NCBI GenBank assembly: GCA_022843805.1
Contig: JALHMY010000031.1
Coordinates: 1-64,000 of the forward strand
From: Fuerstiella sp.
Lineage (GTDB): Bacteria > Planctomycetota > Planctomycetia > Planctomycetales > Planctomycetaceae
Length of the DNA: 64,000 bases
Direction of reading: 5' to 3'
In this document: piece by piece, positions 4,041 through 27,410 of the stretch
Numbering within the stretch: position 1 is the first letter of the stretch
Layout of the letters: each line of letters begins with the position of its first letter
Notes under the pieces: model-generated
What the model was told of the DNA's origin: nothing
Seen by the model: only the letters and a program-made list of their open reading frames with translations
The model's database searches: none
Made by a program: the position numbers and the translations under genes

Positions 4041-4551
4041 AGTGTTCGGCACTGCGATTGCGGTTGATTGACGGCAGCGTGAGTTATGAGAGGGTCGGCA
4101 GCATTTGGCAAACCGCTGACAAGGATCCAGCCACATCGGGCAGAGGCGGCTTAAGGCACCGCGCAGCATTGAACGGCCCGGCGTGCAGAGCGCGCGGGTG
4201 TCTTACTCTTCAGCTGATCTTATTTTTGCGATGTGCCGTTCCAGTTCTTCGAGCGACGCCCATCCCGACATAGAGAGGCAGATCATTGGACCGGTCGATG
4301 TGCCCTCGCCACCCCTCGATCCCAATGGCGTGGACTTAAGCATCGTGCGGATTTCCATAGTCGTTTTTCGCTCCGCGAAAACACGCGAAAACGCTACCTT
4401 CGCGGAGCGAAAGGCGACAATAAGTCCACGCCATTGCCCCTCGATCCCCTCGCCCCCCCCACGCTCCGGAAACGCACTTTGTGGTGTAGGGCCGTTTGGT
4501 CGTGAGTGAGGCCCTGAGCATTGGAACTTTGAGCAGAATCTGAGGTCGGGT
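4041..4551. other. Degenerate intergenic region with repeat remnants
   Basis: No intact gene is seen. A minus-strand tail ending at 4203 (SMSGWASLEELERHIAKIRSAEE) looks protein-like but I cannot assign it. The stretch also includes the palindromic element at 4324-4435 and C-rich sequence at 4438-4460. It looks like a junkyard of rearranged pieces. Confidence 0.4.
4324..4435. repeat. Nested palindromic repeat element
   Basis: The outer arms are AATGGCGTGGACTTA (4324-4338) and TAAGTCCACGCCATT (4421-4435). The inner arms are TTTCGCTCCGCGAA (4366-4379) and TTCGCGGAGCGAAA (4399-4412). The inner right arm with its flank (AACGCTACCTTCGCGGAGCG) recurs at 60181-60205, so this is a dispersed family. 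Confidence 0.75.
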
Positions 4552-5061
4552 ATGTCCGTCTCCGATGAATTTATCGAGGACAAGGCCACGACAGCACACG
4601 ACGTTGTGCTGGGGGTCTGTAATGAAGCGAACGCTGCAGAATCAAAACGACAACGTCAGCAATGCGTGAATCGAGGCATCGCAGCGCTGTATCGCTGGTA
4701 CGTGGCCCGTTTTCAGCCAGCGCGCCAGTGGAATGCGGACACCGACTTCCGCTGGAAGGAGATTTGCCGCGATCTGCCTGAAGATATTCTTGCCATTGTG
4801 CAGGGATTCTACGCGGTGGAACAATTCATTCCTGACTATGCCGCGGAACTGACCGGACTTCTGAGGATGAATTGCGGCCGATCACGGCCCTGGGAATTAC
4901 CTTTCGATGATCCGCTTGAGATGCTGATCTACACGGTTCTGCAGGAACGCCCGACCCAGGTCAACTACGCCCGGCTGCTGGCCTTCTTCGAGATGCCTGC
5001 TGCGGCGATCGTGCCGGATTATGACCCTTTTATCGATGCACTTTATCAATGGAATGAATGA
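4552..5061 (+). CDS. Hypothetical protein (169 residues)
   Basis: Soluble-looking protein with no signal peptide or membrane segment. It is Trp/Tyr-rich in the middle (ALYRWYVARFQPARQW, residues 45-60) and mostly predicted helical. I do not recognise a family. The start is the ATG at 4552; the upstream ribosome site is weak (GAGGTCGGGT). Its last 8 bases overlap the start of the next ORF (ATGAATGA), so the two are probably translated together. Codon use and length support a real gene, but it lies next to a decayed region and could be a remnant. Confidence 0.55.
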   Translation: MSVSDEFIEDKATTAHDVVLGVCNEANAAESKRQRQQCVNRGIAALYRWYVARFQPARQWNADTDFRWKEICRDLPEDILAIVQGFYAVEQFIPDYAAELTGLLRMNCGRSRPWELPFDDPLEMLIYTVLQERPTQVNYARLLAFFEMPAAAIVPDYDPFIDALYQWNE

Positions 5062-23197: not shown

Positions 23198-24058
23198 TTA
23201 TTGAAAGCGGGGAGCCTCTGCCAGAGAAAAGACAATAACCTCTTCACCGGTGACGGTGCTGATGTCATGATGCATGCTGAGCACTTTCACTCCGGATGCT
23301 TCGTGTACGAGCGATTCCAGCATCGGTCGGGCCAGTTCCAGCAGTTGTTTTCGACTCTGCTTGATCAGGTCTCGACCTTTCTCAGGTGTCTGTGATCTGC
23401 CAAGCTGCCGCTCTGCAAGGGTCAGAACGCCCTGAAGCCGGATAATCAGCATGTCTTTGATCAGGTGAGACTGAATACTTTCCGAACGACAGCCCAGATA
23501 CTCATCCTGAAATCGAATGATGCCATCACAGATTGCCGCTTCGCTTTCGGGCTGAGTGAGAGTTTTTGTGCTTCTCTCGCTCCGAATTTTTCGTGCCTCG
23601 CCAATCGGCAGACGGAGAGCGGCTGACTGTGGATGAGCTGGCGGAGGAAATTTTATTGTCTGTGATGTCGCAGGAACAGTCGATCCAATATTTGATAACA
23701 CCATGCGAACTGCAGCAAGCGTTACAGGCTTAAAGAGGACAAGATCGCATCCGGCCTTCAGGGCCATTGCTTTATGGTCATCGCCTTTCTGGCCCGTAAT
23801 CGCGACAATTTTCGTTTTGGCCAGGTCCGGTAACTGGCGAAAACGGGACACCAGCGTGCAGCCATCCATGCCGGGCATCAGAAGGTCGACCAGCATCAGA
23901 TCAGGTCGGAATGCCGTTGCTACATCCAGCGCCTGAATTCCGCCGTACGTTACATGGACCTGATTCTCCAGCTCTTCGAGGAGCAGGCCCAGCGCATCCG
24001 CGCCATCGCGATTGTCATCAACAATAAGTACTCGCAGAGATGTCTGCGTTGCGGACAT
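23198..24058 (-). CDS. Response regulator with C-terminal MpsC/DUF2294 domain
   Basis: 286 residues from ATG 24058, chosen because AGGAG precedes it; upstream in-frame codons belong to the repeat at 24116-24172. The receiver domain covers 1-125: VLIVDDNRDG with acidic pocket, phospho-acceptor Asp58 in LMLVDLLMPG, and Lys in LFKP. A linker (about 126-170) leads to a DUF2294/MpsC domain (about 172-286; ICDGIIRFQDEYLG, IIRLQGVLTLAE, MHHDISTVTGEEVIVFSLAE). It lies directly downstream of the hybrid kinase and is probably its partner. The output domain is closely similar to the stand-alone protein at 27021-27410. DUF2294 function is poorly known; the S. aureus member MpsC belongs to an ion/bicarbonate transport locus. 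Confidence 0.88.
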   Translation of the reverse strand: MSATQTSLRVLIVDDNRDGADALGLLLEELENQVHVTYGGIQALDVATAFRPDLMLVDLLMPGMDGCTLVSRFRQLPDLAKTKIVAITGQKGDDHKAMALKAGCDLVLFKPVTLAAVRMVLSNIGSTVPATSQTIKFPPPAHPQSAALRLPIGEARKIRSERSTKTLTQPESEAAICDGIIRFQDEYLGCRSESIQSHLIKDMLIIRLQGVLTLAERQLGRSQTPEKGRDLIKQSRKQLLELARPMLESLVHEASGVKVLSMHHDISTVTGEEVIVFSLAEAPRFQ

Positions 24059-24115
24059 GAAATAATCTCCTGATTTGAGCAAGCTTGCTCTTTTCTTCCT
24101 GACATCCGGGCATTT

Positions 24116-24172
24116 GCCTGAAACGCAACCTCGAACGTCGCGGTTCACGCAGGTTTTGTGAGGGGTTCTAAA
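24116..24172. repeat. Half copy of the MITE-like element, providing the kinase stop codon
   Basis: Reverse-complemented, this stretch runs TTTAGAACCCCTCACAAAAC, then CTGCGTGAACCGCGACGTTC and GGTTGCGTTTCAGGC. It matches the left arm of the element at 3261-3317 at most positions. The TAG stop of the upstream hybrid kinase (24168-24170) is part of the repeat terminus. Only one arm is present, so this is a decayed or solo copy. Confidence 0.75.
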
Positions 24173-26468
24173 TCAAACGCTCGTCAACCGTTGCAAGGAT
24201 CTCAAGCAGATGGTCGAATCTCGCTGGTTTGACGATGTGATGGTTAAATCCGGCATCCTTTGAAGCCTGTCGATCTGAATCCTGGCCGTAACCTGTCAGA
24301 GCAATCAGCACAATGTCTTTTCCCTGGGGCTGTTTTCGCATCTGCTTTGCCGCTTCGTACCCGTTTAATCCCGGTAAGCCGATATCAAGCAGTACTGCGT
24401 GCGGCCTAAATTCGGCAGCCGCTTGTACGGCTGTTAAACCGTTGTGAGCGGTCCGAACGTCATGACCGCTGGACTTAAGCAGCATCGAAAACCCAAGGAC
24501 CGTATCCGCATTGTCATCAACCACAAGCACCCGCAGTGATCGCGCCGACTGATTCCCTGTGTCTGCGATCGGCGGCGCTGGCAGAGACCCCTCCGGCCGC
24601 AATGGCAGACGAACAATAAATTCACTCCCTTTACCCGGCTGGCTTTGAGCTTCGACGGTTCCTCCATGGAGTTCCGTCAAACGCTGCACAAGTGCGAGGC
24701 CAATTCCCAGGCCGCCCTGTGACCTGTCGAGAGAACGTTCTGCCTGAGTAAACAACTCGAAGACGTGAGGAAGAAGGGCTGTCGAAATGCCTACACCCGT
24801 ATCACGAACACGAATCACACATTCTTCGCGGTCTCTCTGGACGCTGAGCCAGATGCAGCCGCGTTCTTCTGTGTACTTTGCTGCGTTCGTCAGCAGATTC
24901 GTAATGACCTGCTCAAGGCGTGCCGGATCGCCATACAGCCAGATCGGCTGCATCGGCAGAGACAGCGACAGCTCATGTCGCCGCTGCTCCATCAGAGGGC
25001 GAACCGTCTCCACAGCTCCCTCTGCGATTCCACAGATTGAAACCCACTCCTGCCGCAGCTGAACCCGTCCCGAAGTAATGCGGGAAACTTCCAGCAGATC
25101 ATCCACCAGATGTTCAAGCTTTCCCAGCTGACGCTCAATAATATTGCGGGACTGCTGCTGTATGCGGGATTCGGTTCCCTGCTGCAGGCTCAGTAACTGC
25201 ACTGCATTGGCAATTGGAGCCAGCGGGCTGCGAAGCTCATGACTCAGCATGGCAAGGAATTCATCCTTCCGCTGATGCAGATCTGACAGTTCCGCTGCCT
25301 GCGCATGAAGCAGTTTTTCAAGCCGACTGCGTTCGGTGATATCCCGAACATTGAACTGGATCACCTGATGAATGCCTTCGCGATATGCATTGGCGACGAT
25401 TTCGACTTCCACAAGTCGACCATCGCTGGCTTCCAGCGGAAGATGCTCATAACGCAGATAGCCATCATCCTGCAGACTTCGCACAGCCGCTTCACTGGCT
25501 GATCGATCGCTGAACAAGCCGATTTCCCAAAGCTGCCTGCCCTGAAATTCCGTATGGGAATAGCCCAGAAGTCCGGTCATGAACGGGTTGGAGTCAACAA
25601 TCATTCCCGTTTCGAAATCCACAATCAGAATTCCGTCTTTTGCGGCTTCAAAAAGCCGACGATACCGAACTTCCGAAACGTGTAAGGCGGTTTCCGCTTC
25701 CTTCATGTCATGAATGTCAGTGTTTGAACCGACCCACATGACAACTTCGCCTGCCTGATTCCGCATCGGCAGCGCCCGACTAAAGTGCCAGCGGTAGGCT
25801 CCGTCGTGCCTGCGAAAACGGCTTTCGAATTCGAACGCATCACCCGTGATTATGGACTGCTTCCAGACTCGAACATGCTCGTCAACATCGTCGGAGTGTA
25901 TGAACTGAGTCCATCCCCATCCCCGAAGTTTCTTAAATGGAAGTCCCGAGAATTCACTGCACTGCGGATTAAAATAGTCAACATCACCGTTCGGTGTGGT
26001 CGTGGCGATCTTCTGAGGCATGGAGTCAAGGATAAATCGCAGTTGTTCATCACTTTGACGAAGTCGCACATCCGCATTCGTTCGATGAGCGACGCTGCGT
26101 ATGGCGATCGGAATCAGGACTCCCTGGCTGGTTTCCAGAAGATTCATACTGACTTCCAGCGACACTTCGCTCCCGTCTTTTCGCAGTCCGCAAAGTTCCA
26201 CATGCCCGCGAATATCCTGAGTGGCAGACGCTATAAGGCTGTCTCCCGGTGATCGCCGACTTCCACGAAGTGACAGGGGCATCAGTATTTCGACGTGTTG
26301 CCCTACCAGGGCACTGGCTTCCGCGTAGCCAAACAACTGAACTGTTTTTCCGTTGACATAAACAATGGTGCCGAACTGATCCACGATCACGATCGCGTCG
26401 GGAGCGGACTCCATAAGGGTCTTGAATCGAATATCTGGTTCCGCCAGGGGTCCCGCAGTGCTCAGCAT
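24168..26468 (-). CDS. Hybrid sensor histidine kinase (PAS-PAS-PAS-HisKA-HATPase-REC)
   Basis: 766 residues, no membrane segment, so a cytoplasmic sensor. PAS domains cover about 14-125, 140-258 and 265-382. The HisKA domain holds the phospho-acceptor His410 in LAMLSHELRSP. A HATPase_c domain follows with N-box NLLTNAAKYTEE, VRDTGVGIS (G1) and GGLGIGLALV (G2). A C-terminal receiver (about 645-755) has VLVVDDNADT, Asp in LLDIGLPG and Lys in IVKPA. Next in the same direction is the REC-MpsC regulator, suggesting a phosphorelay. The stop codon sits in a repeat terminus, so the extreme C-terminus may have been altered. A terminator hairpin lies 50 nt upstream of the start. Confidence 0.95.
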   Translation of the reverse strand: MLSTAGPLAEPDIRFKTLMESAPDAIVIVDQFGTIVYVNGKTVQLFGYAEASALVGQHVEILMPLSLRGSRRSPGDSLIASATQDIRGHVELCGLRKDGSEVSLEVSMNLLETSQGVLIPIAIRSVAHRTNADVRLRQSDEQLRFILDSMPQKIATTTPNGDVDYFNPQCSEFSGLPFKKLRGWGWTQFIHSDDVDEHVRVWKQSIITGDAFEFESRFRRHDGAYRWHFSRALPMRNQAGEVVMWVGSNTDIHDMKEAETALHVSEVRYRRLFEAAKDGILIVDFETGMIVDSNPFMTGLLGYSHTEFQGRQLWEIGLFSDRSASEAAVRSLQDDGYLRYEHLPLEASDGRLVEVEIVANAYREGIHQVIQFNVRDITERSRLEKLLHAQAAELSDLHQRKDEFLAMLSHELRSPLAPIANAVQLLSLQQGTESRIQQQSRNIIERQLGKLEHLVDDLLEVSRITSGRVQLRQEWVSICGIAEGAVETVRPLMEQRRHELSLSLPMQPIWLYGDPARLEQVITNLLTNAAKYTEERGCIWLSVQRDREECVIRVRDTGVGISTALLPHVFELFTQAERSLDRSQGGLGIGLALVQRLTELHGGTVEAQSQPGKGSEFIVRLPLRPEGSLPAPPIADTGNQSARSLRVLVVDDNADTVLGFSMLLKSSGHDVRTAHNGLTAVQAAAEFRPHAVLLDIGLPGLNGYEAAKQMRKQPQGKDIVLIALTGYGQDSDRQASKDAGFNHHIVKPARFDHLLEILATVDERLI

Positions 26469-26517
26469 ATCAGCCCTCTTTCGTTTTCAGGCGAGGCGGT
26501 TCCGGCGGAAAGGCAAC

Positions 26518-26571
26518 AAAAAAGCCGACGTTTGCAGAATCTTTCATGAAAGATTCTGCAAACGTCGGCTT
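26518..26571 (-). terminator. Terminator-like 50-bp perfect palindrome ahead of the hybrid kinase
   Basis: The arms AAGCCGACGTTTGCAGAATC with TTTCA (26522-26546) and the exact complement (26547-26571) form a perfect palindrome with no spacer. Read on the minus strand it is followed at once by TTTTTT, which makes a minus-strand intrinsic terminator. The + strand side lacks a T-run. No minus-strand gene lies upstream, and the kinase start is about 50 nt downstream, so an attenuated leader or a terminated small RNA is likely. Confidence 0.8.
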
Positions 26572-27020
26572 ACTCTCTAATCCGCCCGCCAGACTTTCCT
26601 GGTGTGCGATTTATTTAGTCATCCGAATCCTCTGAGCATGTCGTTTTGCTTTAACTATTCGACACGTCGATCGCAATCATAACAAATAATTATTTAGCAG
26701 CAATGCCATTAAGAAAAGATCAGCAGTTAATGGATGATGTAACGCGGCGCGCGGGCACTTCTTCTGCAGTGCGATCCGGAAAAGCATTTGATTTCATCGG
26801 GCCGGCCTGCCGCAAAACGAAGTTTTGTCCGGAGGTTCAGATACAGTGTCTCAGAAGGCGATACGCTTCGGCAGGCAACCTGTTTCGTTTTGTCGAGCCG
26901 CTGTTCTTCTGAGCGTTTTCCGTTAGCATGCTCATAGAAAAAATCGGGCGATCGTAATGCGAAGTGACATTCGAAGGCCGCAGGTCATGTGCAGGCGTTC
27001 GATCTGAGTGGAGAGTGCAC
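26572..27020. other. Intergenic region between divergent signalling genes
   Basis: No protein-like ORF was seen on either strand. AT-rich stretches (ATAACAAATAATTATTTAGC, 26679-26698) are candidate promoter DNA for one or both flanking transcription units. GTGGAGAG at 27008-27015 is the probable ribosome site of the + strand gene. If the hairpin at 26518-26571 ends a leader or small RNA, that RNA must start in here. Confidence 0.4.
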
Positions 27021-27410
27021 ATGATGACTCAGGGCGAAATGGAAGCGGCTGTTTGCGAAGGAATTTCAAAGTTTGAACAGGAGTATATGGGGCGTGGACC
27101 GAAGGAGGTACGCTGCTTTCTTGTTGGTGATATGCTGCTGGTCCGACTGCAGGGTGTGCTGACATCGGCTGAGCAGCATCTGGTAAAGACCCTGGCTCCT
27201 GAAAAGGGACGAGATCTCCTGAAGGACGTTCGAACTCAGTTGATTGAGATTGCCCGGCCAACTCTCGAAATCCTGATCGAAAAGATTACGGGCACCAAAA
27301 TCATCAGCCTGCATCATGATATCAGTACGCTTACTGGCGAGGAGGTTGTCATCTTCACGCTGGCGGAGACACCAGTATTTCGGACTCCTGCCGTCAGCAG
27401 AAGTCGTTGA
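27021..27410 (+). CDS. Stand-alone MpsC/DUF2294 protein
   Basis: 129 residues from ATG 27021 (GTGGAGAG just upstream). The whole length is a DUF2294-type domain: AVCEGISKFEQEYMGRGP, VGDMLLVRLQGVLTSAEQ, TLAPEKGRDLLKDVR and LHHDISTLTGEEVVIFTLAE. It matches the C-terminal domain of the response regulator at 23198-24058 almost motif for motif (for example PEKGRDL and HHDIS-TGEEV), so the two are paralogues. Soluble, no signal peptide. Divergent from the kinase/regulator pair, suggesting a shared function. The exact role is unknown. Confidence 0.85.
   Translation: MMTQGEMEAAVCEGISKFEQEYMGRGPKEVRCFLVGDMLLVRLQGVLTSAEQHLVKTLAPEKGRDLLKDVRTQLIEIARPTLEILIEKITGTKIISLHHDISTLTGEEVVIFTLAETPVFRTPAVSRSR

Follow-up and report, generated by a model that had tools for sequence, protein, structure and literature searches.

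A receiver-MpsC response regulator, its hybrid histidine kinases and its linkage to KaiBC clusters in planctomycetes

Genes at the locus

The window analysed here is a stretch of 64,000 nucleotides from the planctomycete Fuerstiella sp. (assembly GCA_022843805.1, contig JALHMY010000031.1), and our subject is a response regulator encoded in it, REC-MpsC, in which a receiver domain (REC) is fused to an MpsC domain (DUF2294). On the minus strand the genes follow in the order hybrid kinase, REC-MpsC and GH94 protein, with 214 bp between REC-MpsC and the GH94 gene, the next one on the same strand. A gene for a stand-alone MpsC protein is divergent from the kinase on the plus strand (Table 1).

Table 1. 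Features of the REC-MpsC locus, in positions of the window
Feature	Position	Strand	Basis and remarks
REC-MpsC response regulator	23198..24058	minus	286 aa from ATG 24058; open reading frame reaches GTG 24148; Pfam Response_reg and MpsC
Receiver domain of REC-MpsC	23708..24031	minus	Pfam; acceptor Asp codon at about 23885-23887
MpsC (DUF2294, PF10057) output domain of REC-MpsC	23219..23551	minus	Pfam; 104 bits in genome search
Soluble hybrid histidine kinase, 766 aa	24168..26468	minus	Pfam: three PAS stretches, HisKA, HATPase_c, C-terminal REC
Stand-alone MpsC protein, 129 aa, HHDIS motif, type A	27021..27410	plus	Pfam; AlphaFold2 pLDDT 93
GH94 / cyclic-glucan-synthase-like protein, 2937 aa	14170..22983	minus	Pfam GH94_b-supersand, Glyco_hydro_94, Glycoamylase
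50-bp perfect palindrome between kinase and free mpsC	26522..26571	none	Terminator-like on minus strand

Domain architecture of REC-MpsC

According to Pfam, the long open reading frame (ORF) of the regulator (23198-24148, minus strand) contains a Response_reg domain (E 1.1e-20, 74 bits, cut-off 30.2) and, at residues 200-310, an MpsC domain (PF10057; E 3.8e-29, 101 bits, cut-off 23), while the free protein (27021-27410, plus strand) matches MpsC with 129 bits (E 1.4e-37) against the same cut-off. The profile of 111 positions is covered from 3 to 110 by the fused domain and from 1 to 110 by the free one, and both belong to the PF10057 family, far above its cut-off. The initial annotation had described DUF2294 as the output domain of a response regulator and again as a free-standing protein across the kinase, and had placed residues 172-286 of the regulator and the 129-residue protein in one family; the hidden Markov model (HMM) search returned the same assignment. 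The motifs PEKGRDL, HHDIS and TGEEV, which it had noticed in both copies, are common to them in a gapless alignment with 54% identity over 120 aa.

ATG 24058 is the most likely start codon of the regulator, because an AGGAG Shine-Dalgarno sequence lies just upstream and residues 1-30 of the long ORF have block means of 47-49 in the AlphaFold2 (AF2) model. The resulting length of 286 aa agrees with the residue numbers used in the initial annotation. The signature residues of receivers, D44/D45, D88, T118 and K140 in the numbering of the 316-aa frame, are all present and are invariant across 14 aligned fusions; the acceptor aspartate D88 becomes D58 when counted from ATG 24058. The MpsC domains are acidic (pI 5.8-5.9), and Pfam places no DNA-binding domain in the regulator.

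Conservation of the fusion

A search for further REC-DUF2294 architectures, as proposed in the initial annotation, yielded 28 distinct fusion ORFs including that of the window, drawn from the long open frames of a family-wide MpsC search and from loci fetched otherwise. Genes were called greedily, which missed the REC-MpsC ORF of locus L074 (outside the 28) and the SulP ORF of L218. MpsC was found in 61 of 170 genomes family-wide and in 19 of 294 in an even sample of the phylum. The other 13 of the 14 aligned fusions are 58-76% identical to the window's, and all keep the receiver signature residues and the MpsC motifs. REC-MpsC is thus a conserved protein of this planctomycete family.

For comparison with free copies we divided MpsC domains into classes A and B by a motif and best-match rule, under which type B lacks HHDIS by definition and class A takes in insert-bearing copies, the split fusion L107 and the L112 piece, which lies at a contig edge and probably comes from a fusion. 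In a tree of 146 of 182 MpsC domains (80% filter), the 19 of the 28 fusions that were included group together (99/92) as a single clade within the type-A free MpsC. Only one row of this clade is not typed as a fusion, and this row, L107, is a fusion that an in-frame stop divides into two ORFs. L074, from another planctomycete family, also encodes a REC-MpsC (receiver 36.9 bits, MpsC 113.7 bits). Although it is outside the tree, it may represent a separate fusion judging from its sequence, because its MpsC matches the window's free copy better (3e-44) than the fused one (2e-33) and the receiver of the fusion gives no match.

Two REC-MpsC genes are decaying, with changes in the motifs of both receiver and MpsC. 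In L184 (11279-12118) the receiver threonine is replaced and GRDL is lost, and the gene still lies between a kinase and a phosphoketolase gene; in L193 (7594-8652) the acidic pair is altered, and the gene still stands ahead of a GH94 gene.

Pairing with hybrid histidine kinases

The window kinase combines HisKA, with the H-box SHELRSP, HATPase_c and a fused receiver, and together with its PAS domains this bears out the hybrid kinase that had been annotated in the block. Its highest 19-residue hydropathy is 1.1, so that no membrane span is expected. For 22 of the 28 fusion ORFs, the gene directly upstream in the same orientation codes for a histidine kinase with a receiver and either overlaps the fusion or lies no more than 270 bp from it; L068 is a twenty-third case with one 92-aa ORF intervening. 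Upstream sequence is too short at L056, L059, L062 and L077; where it is sufficient, 23 of 24 fusions follow a hybrid kinase. The decayed fusion L193 has no kinase within 2.4 kb upstream.

In a tree of 46 kinase cores, of which 12 are background kinases from the same loci (L056's downstream kinase was left out), one clade (100/99, 33 of 46 rows) contains all 21 fusion-adjacent kinases in the tree, the window kinase among them. The remainder of this clade consists of Kai-cluster kinases, discussed below, and six background rows: two from L103, one each from L106, L107 and L116, and the second kinase of L058. Five of these six lie at fusion loci, and the L116 kinase adjoins a free MpsC gene. Both the domain architecture of REC-MpsC and its pairing with these kinases are well supported.

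At L116 (1080-4018) the free MpsC gene is divergent from the hybrid kinase, with no fusion in the 1 kb beyond the kinase, and its product is the nearest tree row to the window's free MpsC. This locus may reflect an older pairing of kinase and MpsC.

Linkage to KaiB and KaiC

Neighbour counts here and below are limited by contig ends, as 6 kb on both sides is available for only 11 of the 28 fusion ORFs. KaiC or KaiB is encoded within 6 kb of seven of the 28 fusions, and a KaiC-KaiB-kinase cluster lies upstream of eight, in one case with a second kinase between. The order KaiC, one or two KaiB, hybrid kinase and REC-MpsC is seen in L054 (one KaiB at 4404-4745), L057, L061, L063, L065, L073 and L184. 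On the single contig of L060 and L104 the order is KaiC, KaiB, KaiB, kinase, second kinase, REC-MpsC and GH94, which joins the Kai arrangement with that of the window.

The window's own genome has a Kai cluster as well, on contig C17, coding for KaiC (583 aa), two KaiB (109 and 108 aa) and a hybrid kinase (677 aa). The C17 kinase falls inside the kinase clade of the REC-MpsC loci, together with Kai-cluster kinases of genomes G361, G391 (two), G392 and G424. Its sister (100/100) is the L057 kinase, whose gene is directly followed by REC-MpsC, and the core of the C17 kinase is 62% identical to that of the window kinase. Among Kai-linked kinases from seven genomes without a detected fusion, one (G361) falls inside the clade and six outside, four of the six on long branches that make their placement unsure. 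Among the background rows of the tree, the kinases found at Kai loci in G216 and G410 fall outside the clade.

Across 170 genomes, 25 have KaiB over the cut-off, 26 have REC-MpsC (counting a truncated copy in G332 and a decayed copy in G399) and 14 have both (Fisher p 1.7e-7). Because the genomes are related, a test by genus is fairer: among 58 genera, 14 have KaiB, 14 the fusion and seven both (p 0.027). When G332 and G399 are set aside, 24 fusion genomes remain and the values become p 3.9e-8 by genome and p 0.009 by genus.

Among solved KaiC chains, the KaiC of C17 matches 8DBA best (660 bits), with other chains at 389 bits or less among those listed beyond 8FWI and 8DB3. PMC10076222 gives 8DBA as KaiC of Rhodobacter sphaeroides, part of an hourglass-like KaiBC system, and names S413/S414. 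The alignment covers much of the C-terminal extension, as far as the C-terminal tail, and ISSLID is aligned to LSSLMD. We take the aligned serines, the two phospho-acceptor residues in CII, to be S413/S414, with a two-residue offset in numbering; autophosphorylation of the C17 protein is predicted from sequence.

According to PMC3164672, histidine kinases stand behind kaiC or kaiB in many non-cyanobacteria, and single receivers and GGDEF/EAL proteins also occur near kaiC. The clusters described here resemble these in having the kinase directly after kaiC or kaiB. The pairing of Kai proteins with a kinase was therefore already known. For the MpsC-output regulator that stands behind such a kinase in the planctomycete relatives, we found no description in a search limited to the open-licence PMC literature. 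A further parallel is the SasA-RpaA output of the cyanobacterial KaiABC clock, which likewise consists of Kai proteins, a histidine kinase and a response regulator. RpaA is a regulator of the DNA-binding type, whereas REC-MpsC has no DNA-binding domain by Pfam. SasA has a KaiB-like domain (PMC5520375), and here the window kinase differs: neither it nor the C17 kinase gives a KaiB match at E 0.001, and both have PAS domains instead.

Free MpsC genes and bicarbonate-type transporters

Could the free MpsC proteins point to the partner of the fused domain? In staphylococci, mpsC lies downstream of mpsAB, and its product belongs to the same PF10057 family by HMM as the window domains. MpsC is a stand-alone protein in S. 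aureus, whereas the window also has a copy as the output of a receiver, and neither window copy is near MpsA or MpsB. The window genome encodes a third, stand-alone MpsC on contig C102. The co-occurrence with MpsAB that the initial annotation suggested looking for holds in so far as the genome has two DabA/MpsB genes, but these lie on contigs C54 and C105 and the MpsC genes on C31 and C102. We therefore rejected a reading of the window MpsC as part of an MpsAB operon. Proximity to mpsAB is no requirement for membership of the PF10057 family.

Elsewhere such neighbours do occur. Free MpsC genes are found near DabA, DabB or both in six planctomycete loci (L141, where DabA is a piece at the contig end, L144, L146, L201, L214 and L223) and on a Staphylococcus plasmid (L199), near SbtA in five planctomycete loci (L123, L204, L205, L225 and L241) and on an Anoxybacillus plasmid (L197), and near SulP in L219, L220 and L235, as well as in L218 by coordinates. 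Members of PF05982 and PF00916 need not transport bicarbonate, so we use the label bicarbonate-type by family only. At every one of these loci at least one MpsC gene shares the strand of the transporter; additional MpsC genes occupy the opposite strand in L141, L144 and L146, and in L085 a SulP gene lies 481 bp from a type-B MpsC gene, also on the opposite strand. Family-wide, at least nine free MpsC places are within about 3.5 kb of DabA or SbtA, in six genera, against 0.25 expected, an approximate figure for which positions were read by eye and about 107 free places and a mean genome of 7 Mb were assumed; two of the nine (G437 and G438) have SbtA as fragments only. Among 23 receiver-only control loci (L158-L180), one, L162, has DabA/DabB about 5 kb off. 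The MpsC gene of Acetoanaerobium (L198) has genes for an MFS protein and a Na+/H+ antiporter as neighbours and no DabA, DabB or SbtA.

The adjacency in planctomycetes and Bacillota contradicts the published claim that mpsC and mpsAB are neighbours in staphylococci alone. Nowhere in the open-licence PMC literature did we find mpsC mentioned with a response regulator and bicarbonate, and the name DUF2294 came up there in a single study, on a fungal secretome. Purely by analogy, MpsC resembles SbtB and other PII-like accessory proteins as a small soluble protein encoded beside bicarbonate transporters, but its predicted order of strands and helices differs from the PII fold.

Signalling forms a second context of free MpsC genes. 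Of 103 type-A genes, 12 have SpoIIE, in a REC-SpoIIE gene, no more than 6 kb away, and a receiver gene stands beside MpsC in L114, L126 and L140. A further MpsC gene is found at up to 6 kb from 50 of these type-A genes and from 46 of the 52 genes of type B.

Predicted structure of MpsC

The AF2 model of the free MpsC protein (predicted local distance difference test, pLDDT, 93) has a helix, two strands, a short helix, a long helix and two strands. The fused domain is predicted to have the same order of elements (alpha-beta-beta-alpha-alpha-beta-beta), whereas the arrangement of the domains within the full-length fusion, which had also been proposed for modelling, is not fixed by its model (pLDDT 85, predicted template modelling score 0.50). 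Foldseek against the PDB gave no match at E 0.001 or below among 355 rows at E up to 10. With VIA-align the best score was Z 7.1 for an FtsK motor domain, followed by collagenases and TRAPP subunits at Z of about 6, within the stated chance range, and from these models we neither claim nor exclude any family of fold relatives. A sequence search of solved structures with the free MpsC and with an alignment gave nothing below E 0.08, and NCBIfam gave no family for the free MpsC.

Two roles for the domain were considered and set aside. A DNA-binding domain is disfavoured, although not disproved, by the acidic character of MpsC and by a modelled strand-helix order that is not a helix-turn-helix. 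A histidine phosphotransfer (HPt) domain completing the hybrid phosphorelay would be a four-helix bundle, whereas the model is alpha/beta.

Interpretation and alternatives

We propose, with moderate confidence, that REC-MpsC belongs to a KaiBC-associated phosphorelay with MpsC as its output domain, possibly acting on inorganic-carbon uptake. REC-MpsC would be the dedicated response regulator of one family of hybrid histidine kinases. In one of two settings it follows a KaiBC timer with its kinase (KaiC-KaiB-KaiB-kinase); in the other, that of the window, it comes after a PAS-type kinase and lies beside a cyclic-glucan-synthase-like gene. Signals received by the kinase would lead to phosphorylation of the receiver aspartate and thereby alter the binding or the oligomeric state of MpsC. 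In this organism the regulator would integrate signals from both the window kinase and the C17 kinase of the Kai cluster. The MpsC domain would most likely act through protein-protein contact, and not DNA binding, on a partner of the free MpsC proteins. The leading candidate for this partner is a transporter or the control of one, given that free MpsC genes in some cases adjoin transporters for inorganic carbon that belong to unrelated families. The initial annotation had proposed a phosphorelay acting on an MpsC-type protein; this is still the natural reading of a fusion conserved with hybrid kinases, but the competition with the free paralogue that it added finds no support in gene order. 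It included neither the Kai link nor the link of free MpsC to several bicarbonate-type transporters. A stronger version, in which a primitive KaiBC hourglass timer, through the hybrid kinase and REC-MpsC, directly regulates inorganic-carbon uptake or a shared partner of free MpsC, and in which MpsC is a general regulator of unrelated bicarbonate transporters, would amount to a non-transcriptional clock output outside the cyanobacteria; it appears unlikely to us.

Several observations weigh against the proposal. On its signalling side, no HPt domain was matched in the three window proteins, even though the kinases are hybrid. On its Kai side, the Kai cluster of the own genome has no REC-MpsC after the kinase, the next genes on the same strand being MCRA and ABC1. 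Of the 26 fusion genomes, 12 (several of them drafts) have no KaiB over the cut-off; conversely, 11 genomes with KaiB have no detected fusion, including G361 with its Kai kinase inside the clade, and G410 has a fusion elsewhere, yet its Kai kinase is outside the clade. On its transporter side, DabA, DabB or SbtA is within 6 kb in only 12 of 107 loci with free MpsC, and none of the 28 fusions has DabA, DabB, SbtA or SulP at that distance, as far as contigs extend. In the MpsC tree, the clade of free MpsC richest in transporter neighbours also differs from the clade ancestral to the fusions. Finally, an S. aureus mpsC deletion has no growth phenotype (PMC6689103) and mpsC is dispensable in complementation (PMC6689103; PMC8552792). 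We nevertheless keep our confidence despite the genus-level p of 0.027, since the argument rests mainly on gene order and on the kinase tree.

What else could REC-MpsC do? It may be a phosphorylation-dependent mimic that competes with or joins free MpsC proteins, a possible but somewhat doubtful reading. It would agree with the similarity of the two window domains, with the nesting of the fused domain in type A, and with L116, where a free MpsC is divergently paired with a kinase of the same clade; moreover, a second MpsC match of more than 110 bits is present in 19 of 24 fusion genomes (counted by eye). On the other hand, a free mpsC gene is within 6 kb of the fusion in only one of the 28 loci, the window itself, so that the block of free and fused MpsC genes, which the initial annotation had emphasised, is not a general feature, and G299 (64% complete) and G424 show no MpsC beyond the fusion in the family-wide search. 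We are more doubtful still of a purely local role, in which REC-MpsC regulates the adjacent gene by transcription or contact, has no part in inorganic carbon and receives Kai signals as one of several inputs. Such a role is suggested by homologues of GH94 within 6 kb of six of the 28 fusions, phosphoketolase (XFP) of four and a P-type ATPase of one, mostly as the next gene on the fusion's strand, and by L112, whose contig-edge MpsC piece (at 73% identity to the fused domain of the window, and left out of the fusion count) is likewise followed by an ATPase gene. The neighbour, however, varies among relatives while the regulator stays constant, 17 of the 28 have none of the three within 6 kb (some contigs ending early), and co-transcription alone could explain those that are present. 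The acidic MpsC, modelled without a helix-turn-helix, also argues against transcriptional control, and we rejected the downstream genes as a single regulon as too variable between loci. We regard it as highly improbable that REC-MpsC has no function and is a degenerate or idle product of gene fusion: two decayed fusions (L184 and L193) and the in-frame stop of L107 would suit it, but the receiver signature and MpsC motifs are intact in the 14 aligned fusions and the adjacency to the kinase is conserved.

Under the proposed KaiBC-associated phosphorelay, REC-MpsC is a testable candidate output of a KaiBC timer outside cyanobacteria, in one planctomycete group. MpsC itself gains two contexts, namely signalling by phosphorylation and bicarbonate-type transporters of three unrelated families in two phyla. 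Should MpsC regulate transporters, some DabAB/MpsAB, SbtA and SulP systems would have one in common.

Additional observations

The palindrome between the kinase and the free mpsC lies about 54 bp ahead of the kinase start. With six T on the minus strand it is terminator-like and could halt transcripts that enter the kinase gene. Its 18-base half-site has no further exact match in the genome; there are two others with one and two mismatches, against one for the control.

Clusters of MpsC genes (types A, B and insert-bearing) with a REC-SpoIIE phosphatase are found in L144 (8197-11907), L146 (4265-8210), L150, L155 and L157; in L144 and L146 DabA comes after the A copy on the other strand. A divergent pair of type-A and type-B genes is widespread in planctomycete loci, for example L132 (9189-10375) and L117 (5034-6240). 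Type B is strongly diverged and forms one clade (100/100) in the MpsC tree. Proteins with two MpsC domains in tandem, typed B, are encoded in L082 (3208-4065), L083 (9473-10306) and L084 (9465-10325). An MpsC homologue, 58% identical in two pieces, is encoded at 93792-94150 of LR756511.1 (L200), a 595-kb record labelled uncultured phage, and a 5.9-kb S. aureus phage record also contains one.

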